DNA from: a virus
Virus record (IMG/VR): IMGVR_UViG_3300035670_001059
Coordinates: 1-27,301 of that record
DNA: 27,301 nucleotides
Strand: one strand, 5' to 3'
Below the pieces are notes generated by a model. That model made no database searches. It was not told the origin of the DNA and saw nothing but the letters and a program-made list of their open reading frames with translations. Positions 2,097 through 27,301 of the stretch are shown here, piece by piece; position 1 is the stretch's first letter, and each line of letters begins with the position of its first letter. A program made the translations under genes and the position numbers.

Positions 2097-3412
2097 TAGA
2101 GAGCTCCGTAGTTGACAGTGTGGAAGCCATTGATCGTCGGGCCGAGAGCTTCGGGCTTGATCTTCAGGACTTCGTCAGCCATGACACCAACCTGTCGCGG
2201 ACCACCCCAGATGTAGTTGTAGACATACACCCCGAGCCCACTGGCCAGCCGCCCGATCCTCTTGATCTTGGTTTTCAGTCTCCTGTCAGACCAGTGGCTA
2301 ATCGCCGCACTGCCCAATGAGGCAATCCCACCGAGCAATCCACCCGAGGCTTGAAGCTGCGCCTGATACCGCTGCAACGCCGACTGATACTGATCGCTCG
2401 TGGCTTGGTAAATCGGCGCCGCTCCGATATTGCTTCCAGCTGTCGCATTCCCAAACGTCGGCATGGAGACCTGGTTCCCCGACCGGAGGGCATTGAGCAT
2501 GTTAAGCGGCTGGTTGTTGAAATAATCCGCTTCCTGGATCGCTTGCTGTCGGGCTTGATTGTTAAACTGCCCACCAGCCAGACCAGCTCGGAACTGAGCA
2601 TCCTGTGCTCGGTTCGTCGCATCCATGCTGGCCAGACCTTGACTAAATTCCTGCCCTTGAGCTTGGTTATGGAAGTTCCCTTGTGCCATGGCTTCATTCG
2701 TGCCCTGTTGCCGAATGCCCATAGCGTTGTTGAAGAGATTCTGTTGCTGCTGATCCCCGGCCAACAGCGCGGCAATCCGCTGATCATTCTGCCCGCGGTT
2801 CAGAGCGTCAACGTCGTATTTCCAAGCCTCGGAGCCAGAGGTAATCCCCTGGTTCGCGAGCTTGGTATCCATCGACTGCCGCTGCTGGTCGAGGTAGGGC
2901 TTCAGCCGCTGCATGTAGGCTTCAGTGATTTGATCCCGCTGGCCTTGGAAATCCTCAGCCCGAGGCATGGCACCAGCGCCGCTGAAGTCATAATTCGACT
3001 GGATTGGTTGGGTTGCCGCCAGCCCGGTCTGATAACTTGGAGTTCCGAGATTGAAAGTCAGGCCCGGCAGTCGCGATTGGTCGATCGGGTTGCGGGAAGC
3101 CTGGTCGACATAGCCAATCCCACGCGAGGCCAGGTCATTCAACGCCCCACTGATCTGGGTGTTCTGATCATACAGCCGTTGCTGCTCAGGGCTCAGAGTC
3201 GTTGTAGCTGTCGTTCGCGGAATGACCCGCCCGGTCTGGGGGTCAGTATACCCACCTGCATAGTCGTAGGTATAATTCAGCGAGCCGTTCGGTCCGACCT
3301 GGTTCGCTTGGTTCAGGAAGTTCGTCGCAATAGCCGAGTTGACATTCGCCTGGCCTTGCTGATTAGCAGCCGCGGCGTAGTCAGGTGCTGGCGGCGGAGA
3401 GGGTTTGCCCAT
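2096..3412 (-). CDS. Tail protein with C-terminal S74 intramolecular chaperone-like domain
   Basis: A 438-residue protein. The N-terminus is Pro/Ala/Gln-rich (MGKPSPPPAPDY) and the middle is Gln/Asn-rich and helical. The last ~65 residues (about 374-438) start with SDRRLKTKIKRIG and continue through YVYNYIWGG and GVMADEV to the end. This matches the Peptidase_S74 chaperone domain found at the end of phage fibres and spikes, which normally trimerises the protein and may cleave itself off. The domain here is short, so self-cleavage is uncertain. The start overlaps the HNH gene stop (TAATG), and its ribosome site (GGAG) lies within the HNH gene end. In relatives this position usually carries a tail fibre or needle-like protein. 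Confidence 0.85.
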   Translation of the reverse strand: MGKPSPPPAPDYAAAANQQGQANVNSAIATNFLNQANQVGPNGSLNYTYDYAGGYTDPQTGRVIPRTTATTTLSPEQQRLYDQNTQISGALNDLASRGIGYVDQASRNPIDQSRLPGLTFNLGTPSYQTGLAATQPIQSNYDFSGAGAMPRAEDFQGQRDQITEAYMQRLKPYLDQQRQSMDTKLANQGITSGSEAWKYDVDALNRGQNDQRIAALLAGDQQQQNLFNNAMGIRQQGTNEAMAQGNFHNQAQGQEFSQGLASMDATNRAQDAQFRAGLAGGQFNNQARQQAIQEADYFNNQPLNMLNALRSGNQVSMPTFGNATAGSNIGAAPIYQATSDQYQSALQRYQAQLQASGGLLGGIASLGSAAISHWSDRRLKTKIKRIGRLASGLGVYVYNYIWGGPRQVGVMADEVLKIKPEALGPTINGFHTVNYGAL

Positions 3413-3894
3413 TAGTTATCTCCGAAATTCAAGCTAGCAAATTCACCGAAATAAGCTTTTGCGGCTTTATCATAAGCTTTAGCTGCACTGAGCTCGTCGG
3501 GGAATCTTCCAAGATATTTTTTGCTCTTTTTGACTCTAATTCTAACTTCCCAGCATTTTCGGGAATTACACCAAGATACGCCAAGATACTGTGAAGAAGA
3601 GTTTTTAGCCGAACGCCGGTTCCTGGAATTATCGGATCGTGTTGCTGGGCGCAAATTTTGTCTAGTGTTATCTAGACCTTCATGATTTCTATGGTCAACA
3701 ACCAAGGGAGAGATGTTAAGTAAAAAGGCTCCCATTTCTACCTGTCGGCGAGTGCCGTCAACAGTAACCATACGGACAGCATAGTCCGTATGTGGGGCTT
3801 CTTTAACATACCAAGAAAACTGATTCAGGTATTCAAAATCACTCTCATCAACGAGAGCGGCTTTACCTTTTGTCAGTGGTATTAATTTGGCCAC
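3412..3894 (-). CDS. HNH homing endonuclease with AP2 DNA-binding domain
   Basis: A 160-residue protein from a GTG start at 3894 (AGGGAA about 9 nt upstream). The N-terminal part resembles the start of HNH-AP2 proteins (MAKLIPLTKGKAALVDESD). The HNH core is at about residues 66-82 (VDHRNHEGLDNTRQNLR, with D67-H68 and the Asn residues). An AP2-like module covers about residues 101-157, including the stretch GVSWCNSRKCWEVRI. It is visibly richer in A+T than the flanking structural genes, the usual mark of a recently acquired selfish gene. It sits inside the late operon, overlaps the GNAT gene by 32 nt and its stop overlaps the start of the S74 gene, so insertion was precise and preserved coupling. 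Confidence 0.93.
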   Translation of the reverse strand: MAKLIPLTKGKAALVDESDFEYLNQFSWYVKEAPHTDYAVRMVTVDGTRRQVEMGAFLLNISPLVVDHRNHEGLDNTRQNLRPATRSDNSRNRRSAKNSSSQYLGVSWCNSRKCWEVRIRVKKSKKYLGRFPDELSAAKAYDKAAKAYFGEFASLNFGDN

Positions 3895-17145: not shown

Positions 17146-17514
17146 ATGACACTTCCAATGCCTTTTCCAGATGAATACAGCAATAAGCGTTTCTGGCAAA
17201 AAGTTAATATCCAAGGTCCCGAAGATTGTTGGGAATGGCTTAGCAGCTTTAGTGGAGGTTACGGTATTATGATCGTGGCTGGTAGAAGGCTAAGAGCCTC
17301 AAGAATAGTTCTTTTTGGGGCTCTTGGGCAAAATGAGCTATTAGCCCTCCATCGTTGTGACAACCCTGCCTGCGTGAACCCAAATCACCTATTCGCTGGA
17401 ACGCATAAGGAGAACTCTCAAGATATGGCTGTTAAGGGCCGGGCCAGGAAATCCGAAAAATATTACAACACTTTGGACACAACTGCTATGTTTCAAGAGC
17501 TGGAAATTTTCTAA
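17146..17514 (+). CDS. HNH endonuclease (free-standing, likely homing type)
   Basis: 122 residues, ATG at 17146 with GGAG about 8 nt upstream. [16 protein letters not shown] at the N-terminus and [19 protein letters not shown] at about residues 68-86 define the HNH_3-like fold: H69 with C71 and C76, then N78/H81, and a downstream THKENSQDM segment. It lacks an AP2 domain, unlike the other two HNH proteins in the window. Codon use is more A+T-rich than in the genes around it, a sign of independent acquisition. It stands alone between the regulatory region and the early promoter. No interrupted gene was seen nearby. Confidence 0.92.
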
Positions 17515-25357: not shown

Positions 25358-25697
25358 TTGGTGGTTGCCAGGAGGACTCCGTTACACCAACCATGTTCAG
25401 GCAGAACGGTCTTGTGGAACCTCAATCTGCTGGCTTTGCACAGCTTGTGGGGAGAAGTATGCCCAGATGCATGCTTGGAAGGGCTCGCAACTATCTCCCT
25501 TCTCCTTCATCCACGGAACCTGCGGGACATGTCATGGCAATCGGTTCACCCTGCCCGGTAGCCTCGAATGCATGTCCCTGATCGGTTGGCCGGAAGTCCC
25601 CCTCCCGATCCTGCTCTACCAGCTCGACATCGAACTCAACTTCGCTGAAAAGGAAATCTCCCAATGTCATCCAGCCTCCTATCCACAACAGCCCTGA
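25341..25697 (+). CDS. Zinc-ribbon hypothetical protein (118 aa)
   Basis: 118 residues from the ATG at 25341, overlapping the nuclease end by 17 nt, with GGAGG about 10 nt upstream. Cys pairs C33/C36 (CTAC) and C61/C64 (CGTC), with additional cysteines at 25 and 30, form a probable zinc ribbon. The C-terminal ~45 residues are hydrophobic/helical (LPILLYQLDIELNFAEKEI). It overlaps the ATPase gene by 34 nt, so its last residues are under double constraint. Location between nuclease and ATPase suggests a partner in recombination; this is inferred. Confidence 0.8.
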   Translation: MELRRDWWLPGGLRYTNHVQAERSCGTSICWLCTACGEKYAQMHAWKGSQLSPFSFIHGTCGTCHGNRFTLPGSLECMSLIGWPEVPLPILLYQLDIELNFAEKEISQCHPASYPQQP

Positions 25698-26542
25698 CCC
25701 CACCCTTCTCCCTCCCTGGGGTGAATGTGTTGCTCATGGGCCCTTCCGGCACCGGCAAGACCCACTCCATCGGCACCCTTGTCGACACCGGCATTGATGT
25801 CTTCTACCTCGCCCTTGAGTCCGGCATGGAGTCCCTTCTCGGCTACTGGACCGACCGTGGGCTCGAAGTCCCAAAGAACCTCCATTGGCACAAGCTCACT
25901 GCCCCGGCTGCTGACTTCACGCAGATGATCGCGAATGCCAAGAACATCAACACCCTCAATCTCGACTCCTTGGCCAAGATGACTGATCCAAACAAGTCCA
26001 AGCACAACCAGTTCATCTCCCTGCTCGAAGCCCTTAACAATTTCCCCGATGACCGGACCGGGGAGAAGTTCGGTCCGGTCAATCTCTGGGATCAGTCCAA
26101 AGCCCTCGTCATCGACGGAGCGACGGGTATTTCCAACTGCGCCATGTCCCTCGTCATCGGCGGGAAGGCAGTCAAAAACCAATCCGATTGGGGCATCGCC
26201 CAGGACCAGGTGATCAAGATTGTCCAGATGCTCTGCGACAACTGCGCCTGCCACTTCATCCTCCTCGCCCACGTCGAGCGAGAGACTGACGCCGTCCTCG
26301 GTGGGGTGAAGCTCATGGTCTCAACCCTTGGCAAGGCCATTGCCCCGAAGTTCCCGGCTCTCTTCTCCGATGTCATTCTCACCGAACGGAATGGAACAGA
26401 CTTCAATTGGAACACAGCGTCCGCTATGGCAGATGTTAAATGTCGCAATTTGCCAATTGCCGCGAAACATTTACCCTCGTTTGCTCCAATCATGGAAAAG
26501 TGGATTAGTAGGAACAAAACTGATGGTAACTCCAACTTATAA
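25664..26542 (+). CDS. Sak4-like RecA-fold ATPase, 3' end altered by HNH insertion
   Basis: 292 residues, ATG at 25664 with AAGGAAA about 8 nt upstream. Walker A GPSGTGKT is at 26-33; a Walker B-like ALVIDGATG is around 147; HFILLAHVERETD follows, as in phage single-domain RecA/AAA_24 recombinases (Sak4). These promote annealing or strand exchange with an SSB. The final ~40 codons are conspicuously A+T-rich and end in EKWISRNKTDGNSNL, while a near duplicate (DKWISRNAAS) lies downstream of the HNH gene. The C-terminus has therefore been replaced during insertion; the catalytic core is intact. Confidence 0.88.
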   Translation: MSSSLLSTTALTPPFSLPGVNVLLMGPSGTGKTHSIGTLVDTGIDVFYLALESGMESLLGYWTDRGLEVPKNLHWHKLTAPAADFTQMIANAKNINTLNLDSLAKMTDPNKSKHNQFISLLEALNNFPDDRTGEKFGPVNLWDQSKALVIDGATGISNCAMSLVIGGKAVKNQSDWGIAQDQVIKIVQMLCDNCACHFILLAHVERETDAVLGGVKLMVSTLGKAIAPKFPALFSDVILTERNGTDFNWNTASAMADVKCRNLPIAAKHLPSFAPIMEKWISRNKTDGNSNL

Positions 26543-26987
26543 GTCCTGGGCGGAAATGAAAGCTCGCTGTAACAATTCAAATCGAAAAGATTGGCAGAAT
26601 TACGGCGGGCGGGGAATTACCTATGACCCTCGCTGGGAAGACTATTCAGCCTTCCGAGCTGATATGGGATCAAGGCCCGAAGGCCTCAGCTTAGACCGTA
26701 TAAACAATTCCGGTCATTACACAAAGACTAATTGTCGTTGGGCCACTAAGACGGAACAGAACAATAAGCGACGTGAACGTGCTCGAGGAGTTCAGAGAAA
26801 AGATAATACATCAGGAGTTCCAGGAGTTTTCCAAGATAAACGCCGAGGAACTTGGTATGCGAGAGTCTACGAGCACGGAGTTGTTGTTAATCTTTACTCT
26901 GGCCCCTCTTACGAAGAAGCTGTTGCGCGAAGAGAGTATTACGAAAGTGAACAGAATAGTAAGATCATTTCCGATCAAATCGGATAA
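26523..26987 (+). CDS. HNH homing endonuclease with AP2-like domain
   Basis: 154 residues from the ATG at 26523 (AGGAA about 9 nt upstream), overlapping the ATPase end by 20 nt. Features: SWAEMKARCNN and NYGGRGITYDPRW at the N-terminus, the HNH core SLDRINNSGHYTKTNCRW at about 56-73, and an AP2-like domain from SGVPGVFQDKRRGTWYARV at about 97 to 140. A+T-rich codon use contrasts with the cassette. It belongs to a different subfamily from the HNH-AP2 protein at 3412-3894. It sits exactly at the boundary between the new and displaced 3' ends of the ATPase gene, the typical position of a homing gene. Confidence 0.94.
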   Translation: MVTPTYKSWAEMKARCNNSNRKDWQNYGGRGITYDPRWEDYSAFRADMGSRPEGLSLDRINNSGHYTKTNCRWATKTEQNNKRRERARGVQRKDNTSGVPGVFQDKRRGTWYARVYEHGVVVNLYSGPSYEEAVARREYYESEQNSKIISDQIG

Positions 26988-27045
26988 CCAACCGGATTTC
27001 AAACTGATCATTGACAAGTGGATCAGTCGGAATGCGGCATCATAA
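26986..27045 (+). pseudogene. Displaced original 3' end of the Sak4-like ATPase gene
   Basis: A 19-codon remnant followed by TAA reads NQPDFKLIIDKWISRNAAS. It matches the current end of the ATPase (LPSFAPIMEKWISRN) at P, F, I, K and WISRN, but with G+C-rich codons like the rest of the cassette. It has no start of its own. The natural explanation is that the HNH gene arrived with a recoded copy of the ATPase 3' end and pushed the old one downstream. Confidence 0.75.
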
Positions 27046-27056
27046 GGAGAAGTGAA

Positions 27057-27301
27057 ATGGACAATCAATATAATCTACAGGGCGACATGGCTATGGAAAT
27101 GACATCTAACCGGGGTCGTGTGAGTCATGCCTCTGAGACCGTCGGCCCAATCGAAGTGGCCAAGGAGCTCATTCAGGACTGTATGGCTACGGTTATTCGG
27201 TCCAGGCTACTGTTGTCCGTCAAGATCGATGCTCTTGTCGGCGCTCAGCCTGAAGGTCCTGATGCTCCGAAGTGCAGCCCACCAGCCGACAGCCTCCTCA
27301 G
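27057..27301 (+). CDS. Hypothetical protein (N-terminal part, runs off right edge)
   Basis: ATG at 27057 with AAGGAG 7 nt upstream, 11 bp after the ATPase remnant; 81 complete codons are open to the edge. The protein starts MDNQYNLQGDMAMEMTSNRG, contains a helical segment (IEVAKELIQDCMATVIRSRL) and a Pro/Ala-rich stretch near the edge. By position it belongs to the recombination cassette, but the visible part shows no recognisable domain. Confidence 0.75.
   Translation, partial: MDNQYNLQGDMAMEMTSNRGRVSHASETVGPIEVAKELIQDCMATVIRSRLLLSVKIDALVGAQPEGPDAPKCSPPADSLL

Follow-up and report, generated by a model that had tools for sequence, protein, structure and literature searches.

Homing elements that carry one end of the gene they invade have been described in yeast nuclei and in fungal mitochondria. 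The yeasts Torulaspora and Lachancea harbor WHO elements at FBA1; their cutting was demonstrated to be allele-specific and their architecture was named a third structural class (PMC7282813). In fungal mitochondria, mORFs with a foreign C-terminal were reported at atp6 of Allomyces and at atp6, atp9, cox2 and nad3 of Glomus (PMC3630166, accessible part). The free-standing homing endonucleases of T4 were described as cutting genes next to their own, which is accompanied by co-conversion and marker exclusion (PMC2988022).

The locus analysed here lies in a 27,301-base viral record, the whole of which is referred to as the window. In this locus, a free-standing HNH-AP2 homing endonuclease gene and the 3' end, in diverged form, of the Sak4-like ATPase gene that it targets very probably make up one mobile unit (Table 1). 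The presence of a foreign tail and of a native remnant at the ATPase 3' end was confirmed. The ATPase ORF terminated in PSFAPIMEKWISRNKTDGNSNL with its stop codon at 26540-26542, and the HNH ORF, whose ATG and stop delimit the interval given in the table, overlapped this end by 20 nt. The remnant read PIKSDNQPDFKLIIDKWISRNAAS (24 codons plus a stop) in a frame different from those of both the ATPase and the HNH genes, and its DNA, from about 26971, also encoded the five C-terminal HNH residues and the HNH stop codon. The next ATG was found 11 nt downstream of the remnant stop, and a gene likewise lay 15 nt downstream of the intact ATPase of a relative (L007).

Table 1. Position of the ATPase, endonuclease and remnant features in the window
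Feature	Position	Strand	Description or basis
Sak4-like AAA ATPase gene	25664..26542	+	Native body and foreign tail; PF13479 (AAA_24), Pfam 2.1e-9; phrog_124, PHROG 1.3e-20
Foreign 3' end of the ATPase, diverged, AT-rich	26387..26542	+	GC3 drop, identity profile, alignment with L001
HNH-AP2 endonuclease gene	26523..26987	+	phrog_374, 5.4e-37; AlphaFold2 model
Remnant, native ATPase 3' end	26971..27045	+	79-81% nucleotide identity to L005, L006, L007, L009
Next gene, running off the window	27057..27299	+	ORF

Near 26,400, the G+C content dropped from 0.60 to 0.43. ORFs, G+C and GC3 together bore out the first-pass annotation in its description of an ATPase gene ending in an AT-rich segment that runs into the HNH-AP2 gene, with a second ATPase end after it. 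The foreign segment was present as described, but its start, given as 26410, lay further upstream, at about 26387 or a little later (approximately residues 242-250, from the identity profile), and the G+C richness ascribed to the remnant was real but mild (GC3 of 0.62 vs 0.48 in the 21 homologous tail codons). The two window C-termini, tail and remnant, aligned with a score of 66 for a maximum of 52 in 861 cross-locus pairings, so their likeness was not due to chance. Two more HNH genes were present in the window, at 3412-3894 (minus strand) and 17146-17514 (plus strand), the first of which overlapped the ends of both its neighbours.

Relatives of the ATPase displayed a single 3' end, which resembled the remnant rather than the tail. 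A search of viral contigs returned 146 relatives among 151 matching stretches, and the best 80 were used; 28 of these 80 loci entered the codon comparisons (24 rows after removal of five near-duplicates). One ATPase end only was found in the best 80 of the 146 relatives, the closest ones typically ending in RNLPIKSDN.PDFKLI.DKW.SRNAA and a stop, and a second ATPase end was detected in none of these 80 loci. The single end proposed for relatives without the HNH gene was thus recovered, and none of the 80 loci was an HNH-less relative carrying both WISRN-encoding segments. Over 21 codons, the remnant shared 79-81% of its nucleotides with relatives HNH-less at this site (L005, L006, L007 and L009) vs 57% with the window's own ATPase tail, while the tail shared 79% with L001 over the same codons. 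At residues 249-283 the tail shared 82% with L001, and no more than 68% with any of the other 27 loci compared. In the ATPase body (residues 15-230), window and L001 shared 79%, no closer than the window to L005 or L010 (79%). The tail-minus-body identity of the window-L001 pair ranked ninth of 276 pairs, and this pair was the sole one above zero among the 23 involving the window. GC3 was about 0.80 in the body, 0.46 (window) and 0.37 (L001) in tail residues 249-283, and 0.71-0.83 over the same stretch in L005, L006, L007, L009 and L010.

Related C-termini on both sides of the HNH gene would also result if the ATPase 3' end had been duplicated locally, the copies then diverging and the HNH gene being inserted between them. 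This scenario was nevertheless rejected and is extremely improbable, the two copies being 57% identical to each other and each having a closer partner elsewhere, the remnant in HNH-less relatives and the tail in L001.

Among the best 80, L001 was the sole locus with a closely related HNH gene (68-70% identical) directly after the ATPase, and no closer relative of the window HNH gene was found in viral contigs among the matches listed. It carried the same foreign tail as the window, in agreement with the proposal that the endonuclease travelled with the 3' end of its target. L001 had no remnant and its next gene differed from that of the window, which suggests that its right junction arose or decayed in a different way. 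L007 encoded, at 690-1097, an HNH gene related to that of the window, which overlaps the Sak4 gene on one side and the gene before it on the other; no duplicated end was seen around it.

Codon usage was used to examine the divergence of the foreign ends. For each phage, codon identity to HNH-less relatives was computed at equal residues only, in the gene body and in the gene end, and the phages were ranked by the end relative to the body. HNH carriers displayed the lowest tail-vs-body codon identities, with ranks 1-2 of 24 for Sak4 and ranks 1-3 of 19 for a helicase gene described below (19 of 25 rows used in the rank test), L002 and L003 being related so that the carriers do not represent five independent events. 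AT-rich HNH-less phages, e.g., L019, came near the HNH carriers in tail codon divergence, so that a foreign origin would be enough to produce it. The term "recoded", applied to the 3' end in the first-pass annotation, is best taken in the sense of a diverged foreign copy, since the divergence was like that between distant relatives. Selection for recoding itself was left unsupported, as the carriers were extreme within the set with L019-like HNH-less phages close to them. No recoded target end was seen in L007, where the HNH gene is next to Sak4, or in L011, where it is at the helicase end.

The same 3' anatomy was found in other target genes. In L001, an HNH gene of another type followed a helicase gene ending in LYVACTRQREELHVA and a stop, and the same residues were encoded again behind the HNH gene; between gene end and remnant, the last 15 residues were all identical (15/15), whereas the codons agreed at 4 of 15 positions. 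Two further loci with the same HNH gene and tail, L002 and L003, which came from two metagenomes, harbored an HNH relative at the same helicase site (49% HNH identity between L001 and L002) and helicase remnants of 16 and 7 codons, respectively. The helicase end in question falls within UvrD_C_2. HNH-less phages mostly had RSLYV in this end, as in the L001 remnant, while RALYV was found in the helicase gene of the three HNH carriers (L001, L002, L003) and also in L004. In L004 the RALYV tail (about 480-554) had no HNH gene behind it, possibly reflecting a lost element. L011 carried a window-type HNH gene (898-1314) directly after the helicase 3' end that is invaded by the other HNH type in L001-L003, with a normal helicase tail, and this helicase end seems to be a hot spot at which different HNH types insert. 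L093 displayed the same pattern at a DUF2201 metallopeptidase/VWA gene; the HNH-less relatives of this gene consisted of a distant one in viral contigs (35%) and of phage records below 60% identity, and its native end was left unassigned.

A mirrored form was encountered at the 5' end of genes. In the phage of L010 (G007, locus L185), the HNH gene was located upstream of the terminase gene, with MTTSPQSVLWSPQEGPQTALLQCPVY and a stop before the HNH gene and a terminase starting with GTG-PEPTVIWSPQEGPQTALLACPVF after it. The two terminase starts shared 16 of 20 residues and 3 of 16 codons. The terminase remnant was 78-87% identical in nucleotides to the window, L356, L357, L360 and L364, while the new start was 57-70% identical to every correctly aligned relative, L362 being left out on account of a misalignment caused by an N-terminal insertion. 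Among the 18 terminase-positive records of the 34 searched, a second N-terminal terminase match was obtained in G007 only, and no scar was accepted in L387, where an HNH gene directly precedes the terminase. Mirror forms were also found at ninB (PF05772) in a Methylobacillus MAG and at an AAA_24 ATPase in Pseudomonas sp. JUb42, whose HNH gene has an ATPase-like start.

Cultured mycobacteriophages provided both empty and occupied alleles of one such site. An HNH gene was present upstream of dnaQ in Mycobacterium phages Squint (L386), Courthouse and Schatzie (4 of the 48 matching records had at least 80% query coverage, the Courthouse genome being counted twice), while in LittleE, MiaZeal, Baka, Wanda and Optimus the protease gene was directly followed by dnaQ. 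The Squint scar scored 42, level with the null 99th percentile, and its acceptance awaited the dnaQ comparison with the other mycobacteriophages. Upstream, Courthouse was 93-100% identical to LittleE in 10 of 12 windows (88% and 55% in the remaining two). The two genomes were the same for 22 nt from the dnaQ ATG, where the HNH reading frame departs, having taken the dnaQ start codon. Behind the HNH gene, successive windows of the dnaQ restart were 63, 75, 67, 72, 87, 87, 88 and 100% identical to LittleE; past this tract, identity was 98-100% for about 240 nt, and the sequences differed further downstream. This is the profile of a conversion tract lying next to an insertion.

These comparisons bear on two further explanations. 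Ordinary modular phage recombination could have brought in the ATPase end together with the HNH block, the HNH gene being a passenger and its nuclease uninvolved. Phage genomes are mosaic, the window and L001 have the block in common despite different next genes, and the role of the nuclease at these sites is argued from analogy. This explanation is nonetheless unlikely: in nine loci and several target genes the HNH gene always lay exactly between the foreign and the native ends (in a scan confined to the surroundings of HNH genes), and the tract exchanged between LittleE and Courthouse adjoins the HNH gene, with near-identical flanks beyond. As for a chimeric assembly at the HNH-remnant junction, the data are metagenomic and the right junction of the window is known from this record only. 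However, the left junction recurs in L001, and the same architecture was found in L002 and L003 and in the named phage genomes of Courthouse, Squint and Schatzie, which makes an artefact highly improbable.

Scars of this kind were rare among HNH genes. The scan took in the surroundings of 300 HNH places, spread over 265 loci after removal of duplicate loci; of these places, 289 were testable on the 3' side and 282 on the 5' side. On the 3' side, four cases were accepted by score (88, 86, 70 and 66, for a null maximum of 52 in 861 pairings) and L003 by eye; on the 5' side, three cases were accepted (96, 82 and 55, for a null 99th percentile of 42, with one null pairing at 100). A scar was thus found at 8 of the 300 HNH places (about 2.7%, leaving about 97% without), in a sample selected for similarity to a small number of HNH proteins, which is not representative. 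The 19 loci from phage records (18 and L086) included one with a scar, Squint. Low-complexity alignments were dropped (e.g., L308, score 60; L277, 54; L252, 43). HNH genes arranged in tandem pairs in L091, L105, L160, L169, L276 and L278 were dropped as scars too, being paralogues; such pairs are possibly successive insertions at one site. On a Microvirga lupini scaffold (L336, 2295-3999), two HNH ORFs were located between similar small-protein C-termini (score 70), either a footprint or tandem paralogues. In Acinetobacter phage Phab24 (L392, 710-2586), a small ORF and an HNH gene separated the two annotated pieces of thymidylate synthase; a duplication was rejected there in favour of a split gene or an intron. 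In phage APSE-1 (L086, 735-3716), an HNH gene was annotated within the DNA polymerase ORF, in another frame.

The protein encoded by the window HNH gene is predicted, by analogy, to be a site-specific homing nuclease. It matched phage HNH families (Table 1), had no match to the Pfam HNH family, and the canonical DH motif reads DR in it. Its AlphaFold2 model (six sequences, mean pLDDT 78, pTM 0.51) displayed a beta-beta-alpha pattern and then, resembling an AP2-like C-terminal domain, three strands with a long helix. Plant AP2 domains were the closest PDB neighbours of the model in Foldseek (probability 1.0, E 0.08), which is suggestive of an AP2-like fold, and the Pfam AP2 match was weak (E 0.022, below the cut-off). 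The order of an N-terminal HNH and a C-terminal AP2 domain is that of IPA-HNH-like enzymes. No intein or zinc-finger family was detected in the enzyme (Pfam, E<=1). With its HNH family matches and AP2-like C-terminus, it does not belong to the HO/VDE-like WHO protein family, the likeness being in layout only.

HNH genes are often housed in introns, and the segment downstream of the HNH gene could be taken for the 3' exon of a group I or II intron, or of an intein. Such a reading has a negligible probability, for the HNH gene is preceded by a homologous end that is complete, stop codon included, which would make splicing to the remnant redundant, and no intron family of Rfam was matched in the nine loci (gathering scores) or in the window region (E<=1). 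The earlier view of a footprint left with neither intron nor intein therefore stands.

The anatomy and the empty-site comparison, both observed directly, are consistent with the following course of homing into a coding 3' end. The HNH enzyme would cut an uninterrupted ATPase gene in its conserved 3' coding region, near the RNL/PIK codons. Repair off the donor phage, probably by homologous recombination, would then copy the donor ATPase 3' end and the HNH gene, with a left tract of about 130-155 nt. The ATPase would stay complete with a foreign end, presumably uncut thereafter, and the last 24 codons of the recipient would persist, untranslated, downstream of the HNH gene. Cutting, resistance and repair route at the phage sites are proposed by analogy with WHO elements and with T4 homing with co-conversion. 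In WHO elements the remnant has been proposed to act as a homology arm; the same role is possible in the phages, though doubtful, because downstream genes could serve and L001 has no remnant.

On balance, we favour the view that these loci represent a general, unnamed phage class of homing element, in which an HNH gene is joined to a diverged end-copy of the conserved gene it invades. It would comprise a 3' form, with the foreign end before and a native scrap after the HNH gene, and a mirrored 5' form, with the native start before, sometimes fused to the HNH gene, and the foreign start after. If so, supplying a spare end allows a selfish nuclease to enter a conserved gene in its middle with no need of an intron or intein, which would account for phage genes of hybrid type, with a different history at each end, and for short puzzling gene scraps beside HNH genes. 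The class would be the equivalent of WHO elements in viruses of prokaryotes and would amount to a natural homing gene drive with its own recoded rescue; synthetic homing drives that carry such a rescue copy are a parallel to it. The near-identical surroundings of the empty and occupied dnaQ alleles in cultured mycobacteriophages offer a direct laboratory test system.

Compared with the described systems, the phage form is closest in layout to WHO elements and mORFs. In WHO elements too, the endonuclease gene moves with the 3' end of an essential gene (a resistant one in WHO), the old 3' end is displaced downstream and no splicing is involved; they differ by their HO/VDE-like intein-zinc finger enzymes, their occurrence in yeast nuclei, mainly at one host gene and in clusters, and their demonstrated cleavage (PMC7282813, sections available). 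The phage form involves HNH enzymes that are predicted to cut, several target genes and 5' mirror forms. Like the phage 3' form, mORFs consist of a foreign C-terminal, an endonuclease ORF and the native C-terminal, and the divergence pattern is alike (Glomus atp6: native copy 91%, duplicate pair 63.5%), but the enzymes are of LAGLIDADG or GIY-YIG type and mitochondrial (PMC3630166, accessible part). The seg and mob genes of T4 are similarly free-standing, overlap the upstream ORF and include several HNH genes, whereas intergenic insertion or split genes are described for them and a displaced duplicate end is absent from the portion at hand of PMC2988022. IPA-HNH homing endonucleases of ICP1-like phages have the HNH and AP2 order of the window enzyme and lie near essential phage genes, whereas a foreign or duplicated target end is absent from the description in the part available of PMC10448857. 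No phage example of the architecture was found in the parts available of the open-licence PMC literature. Within that literature, the 3' architecture is already described (mORFs, WHO elements), whereas the HNH-based phage form, its several targets and its 5' mirror image are new, and would extend a structural class of yeast and fungal mitochondria to phages.
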